Shown: positions 20,546-34,939 of the stretch, one piece after another | Layout of the letters: each line of letters begins with the position of its first letter | How positions within the stretch are numbered: the stretch's first letter is position 1 | Position numbers and translations under genes: made by a program | The notes under the pieces: model-generated | The model's database searches: none | Told to the model about the DNA's origin: nothing | The model's input: the letters and a program-made list of their open reading frames with translations, nothing else | NCBI GenBank assembly: GCA_020720405.1 | Contig: DYOS01000022.1 | Span: forward strand, 1-37,175 | DNA length: 37,175 bases | Reading direction: 5' to 3' | Origin: Caldithrix sp. | Lineage (GTDB): Bacteria > Calditrichota > Calditrichia > Calditrichales > Calditrichaceae

Positions 20546-21304
20546 TCAGAATAAATTCAGGTACACGTTTGCAATACTATCGCCAAAAAAAATAAAAATT
20601 AAAGTGCTTAGTGAGAGAAAGGGACCAAACGGCACCAATCCGGCTTGAAATCTGAATGATCCAAGGCGCATAATAGCAGCAAAAACAAGAACCATCACCG
20701 CTCCGGTATAGAAAGCAAGCAGGCTGAATTTCCAGCCGATAACCAGGCCGGCTGCCGACATCAGTTTAACATCACCCAGACCAAGGCCATCTTTCCGCAA
20801 TACAAAGCGGGATAATAAGGCCAGCGCATAAAGGGTGATACCGGTGATCAGCGCCCCACTCATGACGAACCGCCAGCTCCTGACCTCAAAAATAACATTA
20901 TAAACCAGAAAGAAAATTACAAACAAAAGAAGAATCCGGTCCGGAATAAGCAGAACATCAAGATCGATAAATGAAACGGCGATGAGGACATAAGCTAATA
21001 ATACAATCAGGAAAAACTCCGGTCTGAAACCAAACCGGCTGAAAGAATAAAGCGTGACCAGTGCCGAAATAAATTCCACGAAAAAATAGCGCACCGAAAC
21101 AGGCGCATGGCAGAATGCACAGCGTCCGCGCAGAAAAACAAACGACAGTAGTGGAATATTCTGATACCAGCGTAAAGGTTGATGGCAGTGCGGGCAATGG
21201 GAAGCCGGCTTAACCAGCGACTCACCTTTTGGCAGGCGATGGATGACCACATTCAGAAAACTGCCGGCTATGGCACCAAATACAAAGATAAACGACTCAA
21301 TCAT
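20546..21304 (-). CDS. pilD: Prepilin peptidase / N-methyltransferase
   Basis: A 252-residue membrane aspartic protease that cleaves prepilin leaders after Gly and N-methylates the new terminus. Residues 11-22 (AIAGSFLNVVIH) and the two CxxC pairs Cys37/Cys40 and Cys62/Cys65 belong to the methyltransferase/zinc region. The protease motifs are FIDLD....PD (Asp114, Asp116) and GLGDVK (Asp178). About seven hydrophobic helices follow. The start overlaps the pilB stop by four bases (ATGA type), so the two are coupled. It should process all five prepilins encoded downstream. Confidence 0.96.
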   Translation of the reverse strand: MIESFIFVFGAIAGSFLNVVIHRLPKGESLVKPASHCPHCHQPLRWYQNIPLLSFVFLRGRCAFCHAPVSVRYFFVEFISALVTLYSFSRFGFRPEFFLIVLLAYVLIAVSFIDLDVLLIPDRILLLFVIFFLVYNVIFEVRSWRFVMSGALITGITLYALALLSRFVLRKDGLGLGDVKLMSAAGLVIGWKFSLLAFYTGAVMVLVFAAIMRLGSFRFQAGLVPFGPFLSLSTLIFIFFGDSIANVYLNLF

Positions 21305-23619
21305 AAAAGCCTGAAATCTACTTTTTCACCAGTTTGGTCAGGTTTTTGACCTGTTTCTTCCTTTAGTTCTGTTGCAACGGATGTTCTCCTGGCCGAGCGA
21401 TCGAGCATGCGCCGGATTCGGGCTACCAGAATATCGCGCTGAATAGGTTTGGTCAGATAATCGTCAGCACCAAGTTCGAGCCCGCGCAGTTCATTTTGGG
21501 ACGACTTCATGCTGGTCAGCATCAAAACCGGGACATTGGCTGTTTCCGGAGCAGCCCGCAAATGCTGTAAAAATTCATAACCATCCATTCTCGGCATCAT
21601 TATATCCAGAAGAATTACATCCGGTATTTTCCGGGTTATCTCTTCAAGGGCGGAAATACCATCAGAGGCTTCACGTACCGTCATATTGGTGGTTTTCTCA
21701 AGTATGGTCCGGATCATAGTCCGGGCTACATTAAAATCGTCAACAATCAAAACGTCCGGGCGGAATTCCGCTTCGGGCACGGGGCTATCCCCGGCCGGCA
21801 GACCGGTCAGCGGATGCGGCTCTTCTGTTTCATTGGCCGGGATAATCTGGTCTGCCTCGGGCAGATTGGGCTGGCTGGCCTCCGGTACAATTCGGGCGGA
21901 AGAGACCCCTGCCGTTTCTTCACCGTCATCAACGGTGGAATGCATGTTCCGTAACACTTCTTTATAATCGGTAATGCCATCGGCCACCAAAGACAGAGCA
22001 TCTTCAAACAGGTTGCGGAAACCTGCTTTCCGGGCATGACTCCGGATTTCCTGCAAATTGGTCTGACCGCCGATCAGCTGTTTGAGCTCATTATCGATGA
22101 TCAGGATTTCATAAACCCCGATCCGCCCCTTATAACCGGAATAATCACATTTCGGACAACCCTTGGCCTCAAAGGTCTGCGGCTGATGGCCAAGACTGTT
22201 TAGCATTTTGGACAGCTTCGGATCGATCTGATCTGCCTGAACGCTGACCTTGCAATGCGGACATAGTTTGCGGACCAGACGCTGGGCGACAATGCTTTGG
22301 ATGGAATCGGTAATTTTTACAACATTGATTCCCATATCCATCAGACGGGTGATGGTGGCAAAGGTATCGTTGGTGTGCAATGTGCTCAGCACCAAATGCC
22401 CGGTCAACGCGGCCTGGATGGCGATTTCCGCTGTTTCGCGGTCCCGTATTTCACCAACCAGGATAACATCCGGATCCTGGCGCAGAAATGAGCGCAAAGC
22501 GCTGGCAAAGGTGACACCGGCTTTTTCATTAACCTGAACCTGGTTTATACCTTCAATCATATATTCAATCGGGTCTTCGATGGTCAGAATATTGTTGGCC
22601 GTGGAGCGAATGCGGTTAATGGCGGCATACAGTGTGGTGCTTTTTCCCGAACCGGTTGGCCCGGTTACCAAAATCATACCCTGCTTAAAACCGAAGCACT
22701 CTTCCAGCAATTTCTGGTTGTGGCCGCGGATACCCATTTTGGCAAATGAAACCATGGCTTTGCGTTTATCGAGCAGGCGGATGACCACCTTTTCACCAAA
22801 AGTGGTCGGCAGAACGGATACACGAAGATCGATATCGGCATCGTCAATATAAATTTTGGCTTTGCCATCCTGCGGTTTGCGGGTTTCAGCAATGTTCAGC
22901 GATGAAATAATCTTGATCCGGCTGATCAGCGTTTGATGGGCGGTGCGCGGCAGCTCGACCACATTCCTTAGAACACCGTCAATCCGGTAACGAACCAGAA
23001 CTTTCTGCTCTTTGGGTTCGATATGGATATCGCTGGCACCGCCTTCAGCGGCATCGAACAAAATCTGGCTGACCAGGCGGACCACCGAAGAATCCTGCGC
23101 CGCCTCATCACCTTCAATGCGCAGGTTTACCGAACGTGTTTTCCCGTCCATGTATGAATCGATAAATTTGTCCGGTGTGAAGTATTCACTGATTTTGAGA
23201 TTTATCTGTTCTTTATAGGCGAAATAGGTTTTTACATACTTCCCGGTCAGCTGCTCAATTTCACCTTCGGCTTCCAGGTTGGAGGTATTAAAACAAGCGA
23301 CATGAATATGTTTATCAACTGATTTAAAGGGAATAAGCAGATGCCGGCGGCAGAAATCCTCAGGAAATTTTTTGATCAGCTCGCCATCTACCTGAACTTT
23401 ATCCAGATCAATGGTCGGGATTTTTAAGGCCTTCTCGATAAAAACAGCAATGTCTTCTTTTTCCAGATAACCGTTTCCGGTCAGGATATCAAAAAAGTAA
23501 TCATCCTCCGCAAAGCGCCGGGACAGTTCATCAAAAAGACCCTGTTCAATAATCTGATAATACAAAAGGGCTTCGACGAGCCAGTCATCATTAAATTTTT
23601 TCTTTGTTTGTAAAGCCAT
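21301..23619 (-). CDS. pilB: Pilus extension ATPase PilB/GspE fused to a C-terminal receiver domain
   Basis: A 772-residue protein. Residues about 1-150 are a degenerate T2SSE_N/MshEN region. About 180-560 is the hexameric ATPase: GPTGSGKSTT (Walker A near 320), DPIEY Asp box, VILVGEIRDRET, LSTLHTNDT, and a CPHC...CPKC zinc clasp (about 453-490), as in PilB/GspE and unlike PilT. After an acidic, Pro-rich linker (about 565-618) comes a full CheY-like receiver domain (about 620-740): the acidic pair in LIVDDF (near 626), phospho-acceptor Asp near 672 (DVILLDIMMPRMDG), Thr/Ser switch (MLTSMKS) and the YLTKP lysine. The fusion would place pilus extension under direct phosphorelay control. It is the first gene of the operon; no sensor kinase lies in the window. 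Confidence 0.93.
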   Translation of the reverse strand: MALQTKKKFNDDWLVEALLYYQIIEQGLFDELSRRFAEDDYFFDILTGNGYLEKEDIAVFIEKALKIPTIDLDKVQVDGELIKKFPEDFCRRHLLIPFKSVDKHIHVACFNTSNLEAEGEIEQLTGKYVKTYFAYKEQINLKISEYFTPDKFIDSYMDGKTRSVNLRIEGDEAAQDSSVVRLVSQILFDAAEGGASDIHIEPKEQKVLVRYRIDGVLRNVVELPRTAHQTLISRIKIISSLNIAETRKPQDGKAKIYIDDADIDLRVSVLPTTFGEKVVIRLLDKRKAMVSFAKMGIRGHNQKLLEECFGFKQGMILVTGPTGSGKSTTLYAAINRIRSTANNILTIEDPIEYMIEGINQVQVNEKAGVTFASALRSFLRQDPDVILVGEIRDRETAEIAIQAALTGHLVLSTLHTNDTFATITRLMDMGINVVKITDSIQSIVAQRLVRKLCPHCKVSVQADQIDPKLSKMLNSLGHQPQTFEAKGCPKCDYSGYKGRIGVYEILIIDNELKQLIGGQTNLQEIRSHARKAGFRNLFEDALSLVADGITDYKEVLRNMHSTVDDGEETAGVSSARIVPEASQPNLPEADQIIPANETEEPHPLTGLPAGDSPVPEAEFRPDVLIVDDFNVARTMIRTILEKTTNMTVREASDGISALEEITRKIPDVILLDIMMPRMDGYEFLQHLRAAPETANVPVLMLTSMKSSQNELRGLELGADDYLTKPIQRDILVARIRRMLDRSARRTSVATELKEETGQKPDQTGEKVDFRLL

Positions 23620-23949: not shown

Positions 23950-24447
23950 ATGCTTGTTACGGATCGTCTGAATATGCAATGGCCTGAGAAACATCATGCA
24001 AATTTTATTTACCGGTTACTGAACAGCCCGGCCTGGCTGCAATTTGTCGGCGACCGGGGCATAAAAAATCTGAGCGATGCGGAGAACTACATCACCAATA
24101 AACTTCAGGCCGGCTTCAGTGAACATGGTTTTGGTATGTATATCATGGAGCGCAAGTCGGATGCAGAATGTATCGGAGTCTGCGGGCTTATTCAGCGCAG
24201 CTATCTTGACCGGCCGGATATTGGTTTTGCCGTTTTACCGGAGGCAACAGGAAAGGGATATACCAGCGAAGCGGCAAGTGCTGTTTTAGCTTACGCCAGA
24301 CAGGAACTAAAACCCGGTCAAATTTACGGAATTACAACTGAGGATAATCTGGCTTCACAGCGTGTGCTGACCAAGCTGGGTTTGGTCTACCAAAAAGACA
24401 TAAAAGATGAACAGGGTGAAAAGCTGATGCTGTTTTCTACCCTGTAA
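23950..24447 (+). CDS. GNAT-family N-acetyltransferase, RimJ/RimL type
   Basis: A 165-residue acetyltransferase expected to move an acetyl group from acetyl-CoA to an amine. The RimL-like layout is visible: N-terminal TDRLNMQWPEKHHANFIYRLLNS, then GVCGLIQRSYLDRPDIGFAVLPEATGKGYTSEAASAVLAYA, with the acetyl-CoA pyrophosphate loop EATGKGYTSEA (near 100), and C-terminal TTEDNLASQRVLTKLGL (the N..S..VL.KLGF motif). The substrate cannot be inferred; relatives act on ribosomal proteins, antibiotics or small metabolites. AAGGAG lies 9 bases before the ATG. It is transcribed away from the pilus operon and appears monocistronic. Confidence 0.88.
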   Translation: MLVTDRLNMQWPEKHHANFIYRLLNSPAWLQFVGDRGIKNLSDAENYITNKLQAGFSEHGFGMYIMERKSDAECIGVCGLIQRSYLDRPDIGFAVLPEATGKGYTSEAASAVLAYARQELKPGQIYGITTEDNLASQRVLTKLGLVYQKDIKDEQGEKLMLFSTL

Positions 24448-25325: not shown

Positions 25326-28300
25326 TTATTTTTCCTGTGCTAAATCTTTGACTAATCCGGCGTATTTGTGTTCAACCTTAAATCCGAAGCGGTAAAAATA
25401 TTCCGGGCGTAAAAATCCCGTTGTCACATAGCGGATGTGGGCGGCTTTCAGGCGCTCGAAAAATTCCTTCATTAACCCTTCACTTATACCCTTCCTCCGG
25501 TAACGGTCGGCCACAACAATTTTTTCCATCTGTACCGTTTCATCATCAATGCGGGTGAAAAACAAACCGCCAATAATAAATCCCCGTTCGGCGATAGCCA
25601 GCAGAAACTGGTGTTCCGGCCGGAATTCGACCGGCAGGTTGGACTCCAGAAACATCTGATGCAGGCGGGAAATTTCTTTTGGCATAACCGGCCCTCGAAC
25701 CCGGAAAATCTCCCCATCATAGTCTTCCATCTGCACCACCACATCGGCGACCAGTTTTCCTTCCTGTTGGCTGCTTAAAAGTTCAGCCTGATCGGTCGGT
25801 TTCAGATGCGGGTAAGATAGGCGGCTCAGGAAAAACTGTTCGTTCCCGGTCAGGCTGAAAATATTGTTCAGCGCTGTGAAGCGCTGCTGCAATTCTTCGC
25901 TGCCCAGCCGCTGGTGATGCTGCTGATGACAAATATCGCGCAGGGCCTCGCGCAATTCATCACCGCCGTGCCGGAATACCGTTTCCAGGTAAAAACGGGT
26001 CCGGGTTTCGGGGTAGTGCAGTTCCAGCGCCGAAAGCTGATACGTACTGAATAATTCGTTGAGCAGGCTGGCCCGGGCGGCATTGGTAGCCTGCGGACTA
26101 AGTTCGCGCCAGCGGTGATAGCGGCGGATGGCAAAATAGAGATTTTTCGGGGTAAAGCCGCAGTGTTCAACTTCTTCAATAAGCTGCCCGGCCTGTTTCT
26201 GCAGCAAACTGAAAATATCCTGATCCGCCGCTTCCCGCGGCGAACTCTCTAAAATCTGGCGCAGGCGTCTCAGACCGCTCGCCTCACCCTCAATATCAAA
26301 CAGGGCGGTCAGCATAAAATAGGACATATCATCCCGTTTAAGCTGGGGATAGGTTTGCTCGGTTTCGATTACAAACTGGCGGTAAAAATCGATGAGCAGG
26401 GCGGTCACATCCTGATTTTTCCGGCGCCGGGCGATGGAAACAAAACGCACCCCGGTTTGATAATCGTGCTCGGGTATGACAATATTGGCCGTGGTTTTTA
26501 CGGCCAGTTCAACCTGGTAATTGGAACGGCGCCAGAAACTGAGATGGGCGCCCACAGCGCTGCGCACAAAAAAAGGCCAGAGATGGTAAGCCCGGTTCTC
26601 CTGTTCATCACCTTTGCGGCGCTGAACCCGGCCTAAAAAGCGGCTGACCGTATCACCGGAAATATACTCTTCCGTCCAGGCCATATATTCTTCCCAGTAG
26701 CCGCCGAATTCCTCCACCAAACGGATACCGCGGCGCGGCGCACCGGCATGAACCAGCCAGAGCATTTCATTGCTGTGTTCGATAGGGTCACCGCTGCGGA
26801 TCATATTCAGTACAATATCATAAGAACCCTGATAGCGGGTCTGGACCGAGATACGGTATACCGGTTTGTCGGGGCTGTCATCGAGCAGGCTGATCCAGAC
26901 ACCGCCCAGCGGAATATCATATAAGCGGACAATATTACCGTTGGAAAAAAGAAAAATGGCTTCGCGCAGCATAGGTGTTTTTTCAATAATACTGACCAGT
27001 GTCGTTTTTTCATTCAGGCTGATCCGCTCCTCGAACGTGACCACATCCGGCCAATGGTATTCTTCTCCGGTTTCCACATCCACTGCGACCGGCTGATTAT
27101 CACCCAGCCATTGCCGGAAACCGCGCCGCATGCGCTCGCGGCTGACCGAGGCCATGCGCGAAACCTGCGCTAAATCTTCGCGCAACTGATAGCGCACCTG
27201 CAACTGGCGCAGGCGTTTGAACTTGGTCGGGTGGCGGATGCCCATTTCAGCCATAAGCATAAAAAGAGCGTTCAGTGCGGTTTGATTTGGCCGTGTACCC
27301 TGTTCGATACTGTTGATTTCATTTTTGATCAGGGCATGGAGGGCGGTAATATCGTGGTCCGTTTTCAGCTCGCCGGCCAAAAAGGAAGTCAGGCTGTCAT
27401 CCAGAAAAGCCGGGTTCTGATTTATAAAAGTGAACAGGTATTTTTCCAGAGCCGCACCTTTATTCAATCCCAAACCCAGCCGGAAATAGAGACGCTGCAC
27501 CTCGGCATTGGCATTCAAACCAGGCCGCCGCACCAGTTCCACCGCCAGCGGATAAATGGGCAAATGGCGGTCCTGCAGAATGGTTTTCAGATAATCGGCA
27601 CCTATTAAAGCCTGGCTTACATCCGGAGACTGCAGAAGCTGGACTGCCAAATTCAGCCCGCTCAACGACAGTTCGCGGCCATTAATTCTTTCGGATAATT
27701 CCTGAACCAGCGGGTAAAAATTGGCCTGCAGCAGGCGGCTCTCGACAAAATCGATGGCATCGTTGCGCACATCCAGACGGTACCACTGAAAAATGGCTTC
27801 ACCGGCAAACTGAATCAGGGCCACATTGCCCAGCCAGTACAGCGGATTGTATAAAAATAGCTGCAAATCCAGGTGGGAATTCCCGCAACTGTACACAAAA
27901 TCACCCAGCCGGATCTGCCCTGAACCAATTTGGGAGATCGAAATTTCCATGTTCAGTTTTGGTATGGCCAGGGTTTCGCCACGGAAAACGATATCGTGCA
28001 TCAGGCAGCCTTTTTCCCGCAGAAACCAGTTGGGCAGCTGGACTTCGAGACTGCCGTTGGACAAGGCCACATAATTTTTCTGATACATCTCATCGATCTG
28101 CGTGCTGAAATTCTTCTCAATCAGCCGTCTTTTGTAGGTGCCTTTCGGTGTCAGTTCACCCAGTGCTTCGCTAAAGGCGCGCCCGGTCAGCCTAAAATCA
28201 AGGATGCGCTCAAAGGGCGCCAGAAATTTGTTGACCGTAACCACCAGCGAGGAGAAAAAATTGCGGACAGCGGCTGGCTCTCTTTCTGGCAGACTTTTCT

Positions 28301-30110
28301 GAATATTTTCATCATTTGGGTAAATCAGCACCGTATTAAACGGACGGTGATCGCCAACCAGGAAAACCTGGCTTACACTGTCAAAATCACGGAACAGGTT
28401 TTCGATTTTCTGCGGGGCAATCGTTTCTCCACGGATGTTTTTATAAATCTCCTTCTTGCGGTCAATAATTTCGAGGTAGCCATTGCTGTCCCGGCGCATG
28501 ATATCCCCGGTCGGAAACCAGCCGTCGGTAAAAGTTTCAGCCTGTGTTTCAGGCCCGTAATAACCGGCCATAACATAATCACCGCGGATTAAAAGCTCGC
28601 CGTCATCGGCCAGTTGCACTTCAATTCCCGGCAGGGCCTTGCCCAGTGAATTAGCCACATATTCACCGGGATAGGTCATGGTAATACCACCGGTTGCCTC
28701 GGTCATGCCAAATCCGCTGAGCAGTTGAATATCGTAGCGCTGGAAAAACAGAAAAACTTCCGGATCGAGATAGCCGGCCGCGCTTAAACCCCAGCGCAGA
28801 CTTCCGCCGGTTGCCTGCTGAACCACAGCCCGTATTTCTTCGTCCTTGTCAAACTCGATATCGACCTGACTGGTGATGTGCTCATACAACTGATACCATT
28901 TTTTAGGGATGCTGATAAAAACCGTCGGCCGGGAACGCTGCATATTATCGAGCATGGTGTTCAGGGCCGGGTTTTCCATAAAGGTATATTCCGCCGCCCA
29001 GAAGATAGCCCCTGTCATCTCAAACCAGCGGCCAAAGGTGTGGTAAAGCGGCAGATAAGCCAGAAAGCAATCCTTCTCGCCGATTTCAGGTAGAGCCATA
29101 GCCCGGCAAAAACGCTTAAAGACAATATTCATATTACTGAACATAATGCCTTTCGGATCACCGGTCGTGCCCGATGTGTACATAATTGAAGACAGGTCAT
29201 CGGGTTGGATATTTTCGGCCAGAGTACGGATTTCATCCGCAGTAACGCCGGCACCCTGCTTTAGAAATTCATCCTTTGACAAAACCATTTTTTCAATGCT
29301 GTTACCGCTGAACAATACCGCTTTTTTCAGCTGCGGCAAACGACCCTGCAGAGATTTCAGCTTGGCTAATTGTTTATCATCGTGCAGGAAAATCAGGCTG
29401 GCCCCGGATTGCTGCAGGATAAACTCGATTTGCTGGGGTACGGAATTAGCCGGGATCATCACATTGACATAACCGGTGCGCAGACAGGCCAGATCGAGCA
29501 GCACCATTTCCAGGCTGTTCTCCATTAAAAAGGCCACTTTCTGGCTGCGGTCGGGCAATTGGGCAACCAAAGCCCGGGCATATTTTTCAATAAGAGTATC
29601 CGTCTGCTGCCAGGTAAATTTCTGTTCGCCGCTCGGCTCCAGCACCCTGAATAATAATTTGGCCGGGTAATCTGCCAGGCGTTGTTCGAACAGACGGTTA
29701 AAGGTAAATTTCGACTCACGGATCAGGCGGCGGACCAGTTCAACCCATTGCGGCTCATAATGTATGCGCCGCAGCAGGGCGCTGTAACGAACCAGATTCA
29801 GCCAGAGCCAGGCGGTTTGTTGCTCTTTCCCGCCACCATTTCCGGAATTTGGCTGTATCGATTCGCCCCAGGCCAGAAAAACGCTGAGCTCGATTTCCGC
29901 AAGTATGGCCGGAATAAGATCATTATGGCTGGCGGTGCGGAAGATGCTTTGCCAGAGCTTTTCATTTTCGGGGCCTGCCATGGGAGGTTGGGCAGTGAAC
30001 AAAATACAGATTTCATTGATCAGTTTTATTTTTTCATTTTCGGTCAGGGCACCGGCACCGGCCTGAAGGCGGGATAAAATATTTTCGGAAGATTTCACAA
30101 AACTCTCCAT
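25326..30110 (-). CDS. Giant AMP-forming acyl-CoA synthetase-like protein with unassigned middle region and C-terminal GNAT domain
   Basis: A 1594-residue single frame. Residues about 150-690 are an ANL-superfamily adenylation domain of the long-chain acyl-CoA ligase kind: MYTSGTTGDPKG (near 311), YLPLYHTFGR, GFGMTEATGG, GWFPTGDI, and YLEIIDRKKEIYKNIRGE..APQKIE (near 553). The A10 region reads ELTPKGTYKRR (near 650); where relatives have the catalytic Lys, as in TPTxKxKR, a Thr seems to stand. About 690-1440 has no family I recognise; its C-terminal half contains strand-rich then helix-rich sequence (VWISLLDD, YRISVQTR, EEYMAWTEEYISGDTVSRFL) that faintly recalls a kinase-like fold. About 1445-1594 is a GNAT domain with RYRRKGISEGLMKEFF near 1532. 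No signal peptide. A GTG at codon 5, preceded by GGAGAG, is an alternative start. Substrate and role are unknown. Confidence 0.85.
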   Translation of the reverse strand: MESFVKSSENILSRLQAGAGALTENEKIKLINEICILFTAQPPMAGPENEKLWQSIFRTASHNDLIPAILAEIELSVFLAWGESIQPNSGNGGGKEQQTAWLWLNLVRYSALLRRIHYEPQWVELVRRLIRESKFTFNRLFEQRLADYPAKLLFRVLEPSGEQKFTWQQTDTLIEKYARALVAQLPDRSQKVAFLMENSLEMVLLDLACLRTGYVNVMIPANSVPQQIEFILQQSGASLIFLHDDKQLAKLKSLQGRLPQLKKAVLFSGNSIEKMVLSKDEFLKQGAGVTADEIRTLAENIQPDDLSSIMYTSGTTGDPKGIMFSNMNIVFKRFCRAMALPEIGEKDCFLAYLPLYHTFGRWFEMTGAIFWAAEYTFMENPALNTMLDNMQRSRPTVFISIPKKWYQLYEHITSQVDIEFDKDEEIRAVVQQATGGSLRWGLSAAGYLDPEVFLFFQRYDIQLLSGFGMTEATGGITMTYPGEYVANSLGKALPGIEVQLADDGELLIRGDYVMAGYYGPETQAETFTDGWFPTGDIMRRDSNGYLEIIDRKKEIYKNIRGETIAPQKIENLFRDFDSVSQVFLVGDHRPFNTVLIYPNDENIQKSLPEREPAAVRNFFSSLVVTVNKFLAPFERILDFRLTGRAFSEALGELTPKGTYKRRLIEKNFSTQIDEMYQKNYVALSNGSLEVQLPNWFLREKGCLMHDIVFRGETLAIPKLNMEISISQIGSGQIRLGDFVYSCGNSHLDLQLFLYNPLYWLGNVALIQFAGEAIFQWYRLDVRNDAIDFVESRLLQANFYPLVQELSERINGRELSLSGLNLAVQLLQSPDVSQALIGADYLKTILQDRHLPIYPLAVELVRRPGLNANAEVQRLYFRLGLGLNKGAALEKYLFTFINQNPAFLDDSLTSFLAGELKTDHDITALHALIKNEINSIEQGTRPNQTALNALFMLMAEMGIRHPTKFKRLRQLQVRYQLREDLAQVSRMASVSRERMRRGFRQWLGDNQPVAVDVETGEEYHWPDVVTFEERISLNEKTTLVSIIEKTPMLREAIFLFSNGNIVRLYDIPLGGVWISLLDDSPDKPVYRISVQTRYQGSYDIVLNMIRSGDPIEHSNEMLWLVHAGAPRRGIRLVEEFGGYWEEYMAWTEEYISGDTVSRFLGRVQRRKGDEQENRAYHLWPFFVRSAVGAHLSFWRRSNYQVELAVKTTANIVIPEHDYQTGVRFVSIARRRKNQDVTALLIDFYRQFVIETEQTYPQLKRDDMSYFMLTALFDIEGEASGLRRLRQILESSPREAADQDIFSLLQKQAGQLIEEVEHCGFTPKNLYFAIRRYHRWRELSPQATNAARASLLNELFSTYQLSALELHYPETRTRFYLETVFRHGGDELREALRDICHQQHHQRLGSEELQQRFTALNNIFSLTGNEQFFLSRLSYPHLKPTDQAELLSSQQEGKLVADVVVQMEDYDGEIFRVRGPVMPKEISRLHQMFLESNLPVEFRPEHQFLLAIAERGFIIGGLFFTRIDDETVQMEKIVVADRYRRKGISEGLMKEFFERLKAAHIRYVTTGFLRPEYFYRFGFKVEHKYAGLVKDLAQEK

Positions 30111-30844: not shown

Positions 30845-33800
30845 CTAATTCTGGTTCTGCTCCGGGTTTTCCGGCAGTGGTTCCGGTTTCGGATTTACAG
30901 TTACGGTAACCGTGCCGCTGTCACTATCCGAACCATCGGTAACGGTTATTTTCAGATTGTAACTTCCAGCCTGCTCATCACCCGGTGTCCAATTGAAATT
31001 ACCGTTGGAGAAACTGGCGCCCGACGGTTCACCGGAAATTTCATATTCCAGTTTATCATTATCCGGATCAGCAGCCGAAACGCTGAAGGACACATTTTCA
31101 CCGGCAGTAACCGTCATTCCGCCCGGGACATTCAATTTTGGCGGACGATTAACATTTTCAACTTCTATTTTAATACTTTGCCCGGCCCGGCTGGTGCCGT
31201 CGCTGACCGAAACATTAACCGTATAGCTGCCAGCCTGGTCAAAACCCGGCTTCCAGCTTAACTCACCCGTGTTCGCATTCAGACTGGCCCCGGATGGCAA
31301 ACCGCTGGCGCTGTATTGCAGCGTATTGTCCGTGTCTTCGTCCTGGCCTGAAAATTTCACATCCAAGGTACTATTCTCTTTTACCGTCTGATCACCGGGG
31401 CTTGCCAGTTTTGGCTCGCGGTTCACTTCAGCCACGGTCACGGCAACAGATTGCTCAGCGCTCAGGCCTTGGCCATCTTTTACCATAACCGTAAAATTAT
31501 AGGCACCCGATTGCAGAAAATCCGGCGTCCAACTTACCGTTCCTGTAGAACCATCAATGGCTGCACCCGCCGGAAGATTTGAGGCAGAGAAGTTCAGTTT
31601 TCCTTCATCTTCCTGATCGGGATCACTGGCGCTGACAGGAATGGTCAGGCTCAGATTCTCGCTCGTTTTCTGAGCGGATACCGGCTGGAGTTGCGGGGCC
31701 CGGTTCACATTGTTCACAGTCAGGGCGAAACTTTGTGTAGCCTGCAAACCGGCCGGATCGGTAACCGTGACCGAAATATTTTCATAGCTGCCGGACTGGT
31801 CAAAAGTCGGTGTCCAGCTGAAGGCCGCTATTGCCGCATCGAATCTGGCACCATCGGGCAGACCGTCGGCGGTAAATTTCAGCTTACCCTGGTCCTCTTT
31901 ATCCGGATCGGAATACTCCGCTTTCAGGCTCCAGGCCTGGTTTTCGCTCGTTATTTGAGCCGTAACCGGATTAAGGGCCGGCACCCGGTTGATATGATTT
32001 ACCGTGATATTAACCGGCTGAACTACTTCAAACTGACCGTCTTTCACTTTTAGATTCACCGTGTACTGACCAGACTGATCATAACCGGGCGTCCAGCTAA
32101 AAGCGCCGCTGGTTCCGTCAAACGCAGCCCCCTGCGGCAGATTCTCAGCCGAGTAGTTCAATTTACCCTCATCTTCCCGGTCGGGATCGGCAGCCGGAAT
32201 AATACTAAATTGCAGTAGTGCATTTTCATCCACGGTCTGCGCCGGCTGAACCGGTAATTCCGGAGTACGGTTGACATGAACAACGGTTATCGGAACCTGC
32301 ACTGCGGCGGTCAGCCCGGCCGGATCGGTATTGGTAAAGGTCAGGTTGTACCCTCCGGACTGTTCAAAGTCTGGTGTCCAGCTAAAATTTCCGGCGGCGT
32401 CAAAAATCGCTCCGGCCGGAAGCTCACTGCTGGTCAGGAGCCATTTTCCGGCATCTTCCTGGTCAGGATCAGAACCGGTTATTTTAAAAATAAGTGCTGA
32501 ATTCTCATTAACCGTTTGTGCCAGTACCGGTTCAAGCAGCGGCAAACGGTTGACATGGTTTACCGTAACCGTAAGGTTTTCCGTAGCCTTCAGACGGCCA
32601 TCGCTGACTGTAAAGGCCACCGTATACTGCCCGGATTGATCATAACCCGGTGTCCAGCTAAAACTATTGCCGGTTAAAACAGCGCCCTGCGGCAGATTCT
32701 GGGCCGTATATTCGAGTTTGCCCAGGTCTTCCTGATCGGGATCGCTGCCCTGCAGAATAATGGTCAATGCTTCGTTTTCATTGACAACAGCCGGAACCGG
32801 AGCGGTCAGCAGCGGTGTACGGTTGACATGGTTGACCCGGATCAGCACCGTTTGTTCGGCGCTCAGACCGCTGCCATCGGTTACCTTGAATATGACCTGG
32901 CCGTATTCAGCGGACTGTTCAAAAGTCGGACGCCAGGTAAAACTCAGTGAATCGGCATTAAACCGGGCACCCGTGGGGAGATTCTGCGCAGAATAAACCA
33001 TTTTGCCGCCATCTTCCGGGTCGGGGTCCGATCCGGAAATTACAAAATTCAGTGCTTTATTTTCGTCCACCGTCTGGGCAGAAATTGTATTCAACAGCGG
33101 CGGCAGATTGACGTGATTTACTGTGATCGGTACAACCACCGTATCGGCCATTTTCCCGGCGCTAAAAATAAAAGCAGGATTTTCATAGCTGCCAGATTGA
33201 AAATAGGTCGGTGTCCAGCGGAAGGTGGCTGTAAGCGGATCAAAAGCCGCGCCTTCGGGCAGATTTTCGGCTTTGTAGCTTAAGCGGGTCTGGTCTTCTG
33301 TGTCCGGGTCGCTGCCGCTAAGTTTAAATTCGAGCAGCGTATTTTCATCAACAACCTGGGTCGGTACGACCGCCAGCACCGGTTTGCGGTCAATATGATT
33401 TACCGTGATGGTCGACGGTTCGTGAACCACACCGCCGGCAGCATCATGAACGGCAAAATCCACAGCGAAAACACCCGACTGATCAAAGGTTGGCTTGAAA
33501 GTAAAGACCCGTAATTTTGGGTCAAAGGAAGCGCCGTCGGGCAGATTGTCTGCCGTATAGGATAACTTTCCCTTATCTTCTGTATCGGGATCGGAACCCT
33601 GCGGCACTTTGATGACCAGGGTCTGGTTTTCATTAATAAATGTATCGGCAATTGCCGGAAGTGAGGGCAAGCGGTTCACATGATTGACCGTAACCGAAAA
33701 AACGGCTGCGGCGCTGAGAGCCGAGGCAGTGCGCTCGGTGACCCGGATTTCAATGTTTGGATAAAGCCCGGACTGTACAAAATCCGGCTGCCAGTTAATT

Positions 33801-34939
33801 TTACCATTGGTCGAGTCGAAAGAGGCAGCCTCGGGCAGGTTTTCCACCGAGAAGAAAATGGCATCGCCGTCAGCATCTTCAGCCGAAGGCAGAATGCTTA
33901 AATTCTGCATTTCATCTACCGTTTGATCGGCAATGGCCTGGATAACCGGCGGATGGTTATGACGTAAAATCAGCGTTTTCTTGTCGGCGGCAACATAAAC
34001 ATAAACATTTTGCTTCCAGGCCGCATAGATTTTGCTCTCTGCCTGGTAACCGCCCTGCAGCACCGGCTTGGCCGGATTGGTCACATCGACAATCTGAAGT
34101 TCCTGCAATTGTTCATTGGCCAGAAAAACATTATTCCCAAATTTATAAACCGAATTTACAAATCCCCCGGCCTGAACCTGACTTAATTTTGTCGGATATG
34201 CCGGATTTTTTATATCAAGTATAATCAGACCGGAGGGTCCGTAAGCCACATAAGCCAGATTATTTTCGACCTGCAGCATCATGGCATTCGTCCCGCCGGG
34301 ATAACTGCCGGCCAGCTTCAAAGCCGACGGATCGGATACATCGAGAATGCCGATCCCCTTTTGCTTGTCGGCAAATAAAAGCAGGTGATCGGTTAATTCC
34401 ATACCCCAGGCCCAGCGCACATCGGTGTAGGTAGAAAGCAGTTGCGGGCTTTGCGGATTTTCACAATTATAAGCCGCGATTCCCTGTTTGCCCATGGCTA
34501 CATAAACCAGAGGCCAGGCCGATTCTGCCCAGATGGCATCGCCGGCGGTCTGAATGGTATTGACCAGCCGCGGCCTGGAAGGATCGGTGATATCAAGAAT
34601 GGTCACCCCGTTCAATTCGGTGGCCAGAATGGCATAATTGCCCTGCACCACCACGTTGCGCACCCGGCCCAGTGATTCGAAAGTAGATAATTCATTGGGT
34701 TTATCCGGCCGGCTGACATCAATAATCTGCAAACCGGACCAGATGTTGGTGACAAACAATTTACCATCGGCATAAAAAACACCCTGTATTCCATCCTGCA
34801 CCTGTTCGCCGCTTTGCAGTTTAGCGGGCGCCGCTTCGCTGATGTATTCAGCACTGGCCTGCTGGCTGTAAAGCGGTTGACAGATCAGCACCATCATCCC
34901 AATGATGAGCAATCCACGGTTCAGGTATTTCGGTAACAT
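30845..34939 (-). CDS. Large secreted protein: LVIVD beta-propeller followed by 11 cadherin/Ig-like repeats
   Basis: A 1364-residue exported protein with a signal peptide (residues 1-25, cut after LYS). Residues about 45-325 are LVIVD repeats (LQIIDVSRPDKPNELSTF, VTILDITDPSRPRLVNTI, IGILDVSDPSALKLAGSY, LIILDIKNPAYPTKLSQV, LQIVDVTNPAKPVLQGGY), which build a beta-propeller found on bacterial surfaces. About 328-1345 holds eleven repeats of about 92 residues, each with Q(T/K)V.EN, SDPD.ED (probable calcium site), NLP.GA.F, F.W.P.F.QSG.Y and a VNHVNR-type linker. It ends in a Pro/Glu/Asn tail with no anchor motif or type IX sorting domain. The ribosome site is AGGAGC. A calcium-stiffened surface stalk carrying an N-terminal propeller is the likely form; adhesion is inferred. 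Confidence 0.85.
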   Translation of the reverse strand: MLPKYLNRGLLIIGMMVLICQPLYSQQASAEYISEAAPAKLQSGEQVQDGIQGVFYADGKLFVTNIWSGLQIIDVSRPDKPNELSTFESLGRVRNVVVQGNYAILATELNGVTILDITDPSRPRLVNTIQTAGDAIWAESAWPLVYVAMGKQGIAAYNCENPQSPQLLSTYTDVRWAWGMELTDHLLLFADKQKGIGILDVSDPSALKLAGSYPGGTNAMMLQVENNLAYVAYGPSGLIILDIKNPAYPTKLSQVQAGGFVNSVYKFGNNVFLANEQLQELQIVDVTNPAKPVLQGGYQAESKIYAAWKQNVYVYVAADKKTLILRHNHPPVIQAIADQTVDEMQNLSILPSAEDADGDAIFFSVENLPEAASFDSTNGKINWQPDFVQSGLYPNIEIRVTERTASALSAAAVFSVTVNHVNRLPSLPAIADTFINENQTLVIKVPQGSDPDTEDKGKLSYTADNLPDGASFDPKLRVFTFKPTFDQSGVFAVDFAVHDAAGGVVHEPSTITVNHIDRKPVLAVVPTQVVDENTLLEFKLSGSDPDTEDQTRLSYKAENLPEGAAFDPLTATFRWTPTYFQSGSYENPAFIFSAGKMADTVVVPITVNHVNLPPLLNTISAQTVDENKALNFVISGSDPDPEDGGKMVYSAQNLPTGARFNADSLSFTWRPTFEQSAEYGQVIFKVTDGSGLSAEQTVLIRVNHVNRTPLLTAPVPAVVNENEALTIILQGSDPDQEDLGKLEYTAQNLPQGAVLTGNSFSWTPGYDQSGQYTVAFTVSDGRLKATENLTVTVNHVNRLPLLEPVLAQTVNENSALIFKITGSDPDQEDAGKWLLTSSELPAGAIFDAAGNFSWTPDFEQSGGYNLTFTNTDPAGLTAAVQVPITVVHVNRTPELPVQPAQTVDENALLQFSIIPAADPDREDEGKLNYSAENLPQGAAFDGTSGAFSWTPGYDQSGQYTVNLKVKDGQFEVVQPVNITVNHINRVPALNPVTAQITSENQAWSLKAEYSDPDKEDQGKLKFTADGLPDGARFDAAIAAFSWTPTFDQSGSYENISVTVTDPAGLQATQSFALTVNNVNRAPQLQPVSAQKTSENLSLTIPVSASDPDQEDEGKLNFSASNLPAGAAIDGSTGTVSWTPDFLQSGAYNFTVMVKDGQGLSAEQSVAVTVAEVNREPKLASPGDQTVKENSTLDVKFSGQDEDTDNTLQYSASGLPSGASLNANTGELSWKPGFDQAGSYTVNVSVSDGTSRAGQSIKIEVENVNRPPKLNVPGGMTVTAGENVSFSVSAADPDNDKLEYEISGEPSGASFSNGNFNWTPGDEQAGSYNLKITVTDGSDSDSGTVTVTVNPKPEPLPENPEQNQN
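30888..33966 (-). repeat. Tandem coding repeats, about 275-280 bases each
   Basis: The eleven Ig-like modules of the LVIVD protein. Copies are diverged but share conserved blocks encoding the VNHVNR linker and the SDPD.ED and QSG.Y motifs. The first two and the last three modules are the most different; the central six (about 31970-33650) are the most alike, which suggests recent internal duplication there. Confidence 0.75.

Follow-up and report, generated by a model that had tools for sequence, protein, structure and literature searches.

What does a single polypeptide do that carries an acyl-CoA-synthetase-type domain at one end and an acetyltransferase domain at the other, and what occupies the long stretch between them? 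The question is raised by a gene in a 37,175-nucleotide stretch of Caldithrix sp. DNA (GenBank assembly GCA_020720405.1, contig DYOS01000022.1), referred to here as the window. Its minus strand holds an uninterrupted open reading frame of 1594 residues at positions 25326-30110, with the ATG at 30110 and the stop codon at 25328-25326. A previous sequence-only reading, which gave no strand, had described the product as an AMP-forming adenylation (ANL) domain joined in one frame to a GNAT domain through about 750 unassigned residues, with Thr in place of the catalytic Lys of motif A10 and possibly a kinase-like fold hidden in the middle; each of these claims was borne out. We conclude that the fusion stands for a genuine family of multi-domain enzymes, which is conserved and apparently has not been described before; no account of the architecture was found in the open-access literature. 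The explanation we prefer, tentatively and with somewhat less than even confidence, is that of an enzyme with obligately linked domains, one chain both activating a carboxylic acid and carrying out the transfer of its acyl group.

Conservation of the three-part order

The order ANL-middle-GNAT, which the sequence-only reading had proposed to survey in other genomes, is kept in all 64 distinct full-length homologs that were found, and the middle never stands alone among them. Hidden Markov models of the ANL domain, the two halves of the middle, and the GNAT domain match in the same order and in a single frame in every complete homolog. A chance open frame or an assembly fusion is ruled out by these 64 homologs. 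The preferred explanation draws on this constancy of order and on the better conservation of the two ends: mean pairwise identity is 56-60% for the ANL part, 61% for the GNAT domain (the most conserved part), and 30-49% for the middle. The parts of the gene are as follows.

25326-30110, minus strand: whole gene, 1594 residues, an open frame with homologs of equal length and domain order
29721-30110, minus strand: residues 1-130, poorly conserved N-terminal extension (mean pairwise identity 25%, versus 56% for the ANL part)
28557-29687, minus strand: residues 142-518, ANL (AMP-binding) N-terminal domain (PF00501, 2.8e-64)
28077-28433, minus strand: residues 560-678, ANL C-terminal domain of the AMP-binding_C_3 type found in long-chain FadD and carboxylic acid reductase (PF23562, 4.4e-12; the PDB match is a carboxylic acid reductase)
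28125-28160, minus strand: A10 motif GELTPKGTYKRR, with K656 at 28143-28145 and T658 at 28137-28139
27741-28070, minus strand: residues 681-790, predicted beta-rich piece (PNWFLRE..., NPLYWLGN), from AlphaFold2 secondary structure
27105-27716, minus strand: residues ~799-1002, predicted alpha-solenoid of paired helices (AlphaFold2 model of residues 681-1594, mean predicted local distance difference test score, pLDDT, 84)
25791-27053, minus strand: residues ~1020-1440, predicted degenerate protein-kinase-like domain (AlphaFold2 pLDDT 92.8; PDB fold matches)
26430-26504, minus strand: residues 1203-1227, degenerate catalytic loop and DFG stretch, ...N1209-IVIPEH-D1216-YQTG...S1225, from conservation counts and alignment to the related frame L150
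25329-25790, minus strand: residues 1441-1594, C-terminal GNAT domain (PF00583, 3.8e-6; GNAT fold matches in the PDB; identity 61%)
25482-25499, minus strand: GNAT CoA-pyrophosphate loop RRKGIS, residues 1538-1543 (R1538 and G1541 each in 61 of 64)

In Pfam and among the 25 best NCBIfam matches, residues 1-690 yield AMP-forming ANL models only, and those 25 are all AMP-forming ligase models that score far below their own cut-offs. The Acetyltransf_1 match (PF00583) spans residues 1495-1577 and is above its Pfam cut-off. Between residues 679 and ~1440, a stretch of ~750 residues, the Pfam scan of the fusion protein found no family.

Residues 691-1594, used as query, matched 24 of 98 genomes, and a profile of residues 681-1445 matched 31 of 385 (22 of the 40 from the same class, nine of the 345 others). 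A scan of genome contigs yielded 66 named loci from Calditrichota, Ignavibacteria/Melioribacteraceae, KSB1, Neomarinimicrobiota, and Acidobacteria metagenome-assembled genomes, along with a few that are otherwise labelled; a contig scan with the single fusion protein as query gave no matches, nor did a tblastn search of residues 691-1594 against plasmids. The source genome has one copy of the fusion, its remaining matches being partial ANL matches to paralogs. Exceptions to the full order are contig-end fragments, two loci with in-frame stops (L038/L054 and L112), and L150, where the kinase-like domain alone is present, and that in part. The stops are single and fall inside the middle in two unrelated genomes (L038:9508-9510 and L112:4042-4044); they may reflect sequencing error, decay, or true gene splitting.

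An apparently relocated lysine in the adenylation domain

Is the synthetase part still an enzyme? The fusion combines the PF00501 fold with intact P-loop (YTSGTTG), FGMTE, TGD, and hinge motifs, and T312, S313, G314, T316, T470, E471, D536, R551, K553, K557, and G561 are each invariant in 64 of 64. Apart from the A10 Lys, the ANL motifs examined are invariant or nearly so, which argues for the preferred explanation. At A10 itself, none of the 64 homologs has Lys at the canonical position. The motif ELTPKGTYKRR covers residues 652-662, and T658 aligns with the catalytic Lys of the FadD paralogs and, in a PDB alignment, falls on the Lys of carboxylic acid reductase. Position 658 is Thr in 60 and Ser in four of the full-length homologs, and K656, two residues upstream and overlooked by the sequence-only reading, is present in every one. 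Ordinary FadD-type ligases sampled in the same class, including the paralog in the same genome, mostly read GELTP[ST]LK[VI]KR, with a few of the form GDVTPTMKVKR, GLITPTMKLKK, or similar and Lys always in the canonical place, whereas 14 fusions of that class mostly read GELTPKGT[YF][KR]R. Lys and Ser/Thr are thus exchanged between the two groups, in an alignment that is free of gaps through A10.

An alignment of 374 ANL enzymes found the A10 Lys to be one of just five invariant residues (PMC6122825), and this Lys is required for adenylation, while the second half-reaction is little affected by its loss (PMC11255334; see also PMC4053389). The sequence-only reading had proposed that the domain makes acyl-AMP but not the thioester. 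This confuses the two half-reactions and has to be reversed: because the A10 Lys serves adenylation (PMC11255334), its loss would hurt acyl-AMP formation. Loss without replacement is itself ruled out by the invariance of K656. A plasmid search with the ANL part returned ordinary ligases and an annotated feruloyl-CoA synthase, L186, that has the same Lys shift (ETTDKGNLNQ). Given K656 in 64 of 64 homologs and this parallel, the A10 Lys looks relocated rather than lost. A Lys at the -2 position is not unique and, judging from these sequences, may be functional, the feruloyl-CoA synthase being a lead and not proof. Under the preferred explanation, which draws on both observations, Lys656 would be catalytic and would do, two residues earlier, the work normally done at position 658, so that the ANL domain would form acyl-AMP and then acyl-CoA, or pass the acyl-AMP on. 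Two points weigh against this: the feruloyl-CoA synthase is one sequence whose annotation comes from homology, and shifting an otherwise invariant Lys may impair adenylation, which would favor a sensor role.

A conserved Lys and a GNAT domain in the same chain also invite the idea that the protein is a self-regulating acyl-CoA synthetase, in which the GNAT domain would acetylate Lys656 in cis and switch the ANL domain off at high acetyl-CoA. This would amount to AcuA/AcsA or Pat/Acs regulation inside one molecule. In Acs, adenylation is blocked when a GNAT enzyme acetylates the A10 Lys (PMC11255334; PMC4053389). However, the canonical position in the fusion is Thr, and we noticed no deacetylase in the conserved neighborhood. 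Pat substrates usually carry the context PK(T/S)xSGKxxRR, which GELTPKGTYKRR lacks, and we consider this alternative quite improbable.

The GNAT domain

The C-terminal domain has the GNAT fold and the R/Q-x-x-G-x-G/A CoA loop, the last place of which (RRKGIS) is Ser in 58 of 64 and Gly or Ala in six. Residue 1529, just upstream of the loop, is Glu in 48 and Asp in 16 of 64, and E1529, equated by eye with the base of GCN5, is a candidate general base. The loop, the acidic residue, and the predicted fold suggest a functional acyl-CoA-dependent transferase, and the retention of loop and candidate base is a further ground for the preferred explanation, in which the GNAT domain would take the acyl group off CoA and place it on an amine, either a protein lysine or a small molecule.

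The window also encodes a stand-alone GNAT that by eye is RimJ/RimL-like (23950-24447, plus strand), ~900 bases past the end of the fusion gene.

A predicted kinase-like domain in the middle

A PDB sequence search with residues 691-1594 gave just three weak GNAT matches, and Pfam found only weak, scattered matches in the middle of 18 homologs. An AlphaFold2 model of residues 681-1594, built from 18 sequences (pLDDT 83.9), predicts a beta-rich piece at 681-790, in which W695, G736, and W759 are each conserved in 64 of 64, then paired helices at ~799-1002, a two-lobed domain at ~1020-1440, and the GNAT domain. Compared with the PDB by Foldseek, this model matched PsiK, PRPK/Bud32, VPS34, tyrosine kinases, and GNATs. 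Modelled alone from 62 sequences, the kinase-like region reached a pLDDT of 92.8 and a predicted template modeling score (pTM) of 0.88. At E≤0.001 its fold matches in the PDB comprise 244 chains (best 2.0e-5, probability 1.00); the best 50 of these 244 are kinases throughout, and viral kinases also match. The predicted fold is kinase-like but divergent, as the TM-scores reach only modest values (0.22-0.30 by query in most cases, about 0.5-0.6 by target at most).

The catalytic residues of the predicted fold are eroded. The αC Glu (E1115) is kept in 55 and N1209 in 54 of the 62 sequences, and the β3 Lys is retained in only five. The position of the catalytic Asp is Asp in 33, Asn in 18, and Glu in seven, and Val in the window's protein, and the DFG-Asp position, assigned to S1225 by sequence alignment and spacing rather than by coordinates, is Ser in 61. 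An active kinase is ruled out by these counts for the β3 Lys, the catalytic Asp, and the DFG Asp. We therefore read the domain as a pseudokinase in which a new activity is possible. Its match to kinases by fold, set against the loss of the β3 Lys and the DFG Asp, fits the preferred explanation, in which the solenoid and the pseudokinase-like domain would have no kinase role but would provide a scaffold and sense a nucleotide or a substrate.

A stronger version would have the kinase-like domain catalyze a different reaction (nucleotidyl transfer, for example, as other pseudokinases have acquired new chemistry), centered on the conserved HDYxTG loop and yielding the main product. In that loop D1216 is invariant in both alignments (62 of 62 and 64 of 64), with H1215, Y1217, and G1220 nearly so, despite the loss of kinase residues, and the related frame in L150 keeps D, N, and DIG (NDVNPYN...NDIGN), its DIG Asp aligning with S1225. 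However, the β3 Lys and the metal-binding Asp are gone from the fusion and the invariant Asp may be structural, and we think this version very improbable.

The L150 frame itself (L150:2837-7066, minus strand) has 1410 residues and a kinase-like domain related to the fusion's middle, without ANL or GNAT; Pfam found no match in it.

Gene neighborhood

Citrate synthase adjoins or lies close to the fusion at 29 loci, in three arrangements. Ignavibacteria-type loci account for 26 of these, with a citrate (Si)-synthase gene upstream on the same strand and usually adjoining; in two KSB1 loci (L100 and L099) the next gene, in convergent orientation, encodes citrate synthase, that of L099 being of type II and followed by an isocitrate dehydrogenase-like gene; and in the Acidobacteria locus L102 it lies ~2.5 kb downstream. 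The end of the fusion gene in L151 overlaps a homocitrate synthase gene (TIGR02146 match above cut-off). That citrate synthase recurs in differing arrangements points to a connection with acetyl-CoA condensation and the acetyl-CoA/citrate node, although the Ignavibacteria cases are not independent. Such a link would form part of the preferred explanation.

The same neighbors bear on an alternative that we regard as rather unlikely, in which the protein would be a regulated acyltransferase of the PatZ kind, with GNAT as the sole enzyme and with ANL and kinase-like pseudo-enzymes whose binding of ATP/AMP, acyl-CoA, or an acid would control the acetylation of targets such as the neighboring citrate synthase. 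Both enzyme-like domains upstream of the GNAT do have altered catalytic residues, and the citrate synthase arrangements and the homocitrate synthase of L151 speak for this reading as well. However, the Ignavibacteria neighborhood is partly inherited synteny, the neighbor in the window's own class is not citrate synthase, and the invariance of K656 and of all other ANL motifs goes beyond the needs of a ligand-binding relic.

In 10 loci of the window's family, the gene for a large secreted-type LVIVD/cadherin-like protein precedes the fusion, in what looks like synteny. The window's copy (30845-34939, minus strand), just upstream of the fusion, encodes a secreted-looking protein of 1364 residues with LVIVD-type and cadherin-like repeats. 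In two distant homologs, the end of the fusion is overlapped by a further ANL ligase gene of ordinary type (L154:9793-11505 and L155:9763-11940). Elsewhere in the window (21301-23619, minus strand), a PilB/GspE-type ATPase frame within a type IV pilus/type II secretion gene cluster has, by eye, a C-terminal response-regulator receiver-like domain (VLIVDD...DVILLDIMMPRMDG...LTKP).

Comparison with known systems

Five types of bacterial GNAT acetyltransferases are distinguished, and none has been described with an AMP-forming ANL or a kinase-like domain. It is a speculative and, on balance, doubtful proposition that the fusion adds a sixth architectural type, spread over several poorly studied phyla, in which an AMP-forming synthetase with a relocated Lys would pass its acyl product to its own chain's GNAT, with a pseudokinase (HDYxTG) in control, at the acetyl-CoA/citrate node. 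In the known synthetase-GNAT fusions an inactive NDP-forming synthetase serves as a sensor; an AMP-forming synthetase linked by way of a pseudokinase would couple acid activation to acylation by a separate route. The family-wide exchange of Lys and Thr offers a natural test of how far ANL adenylation depends on having the A10 Lys in its place. Further, because the middle domain, conserved across several phyla, is missing from Pfam, a predicted kinase-like family has been hidden from annotation.

Among individual systems, long-chain FadD and AMP-binding_C_3 synthetases (PF00501 with PF23562) resemble the N-terminal 690 residues in their adenylation motifs, save for the A10 Lys; relative to FadD, Lys and Ser/Thr are exchanged, and 900 further residues are always attached. 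The best fold matches of the middle are of the Bud32/PRPK and PsiK types (PRPK TM-score by target 0.47-0.60), from which it differs in having mostly lost the catalytic residues, in its identity of 9-14%, and in having no Pfam kinase match. AcuA-AcsA likewise pairs a GNAT with an AMP-forming synthetase (PMC11255334), but as two proteins, with a canonical A10 Lys and no kinase-like part. PatZ/Pat (type I GNAT) shares with the fusion a large N-terminal acyl-CoA-synthetase-type domain and a C-terminal GNAT (PMC8556138). However, the synthetase domain of PatZ is NDP-forming and belongs to another fold and family, whereas the fusion joins an AMP-forming ANL domain to a predicted solenoid and kinase-like domain.
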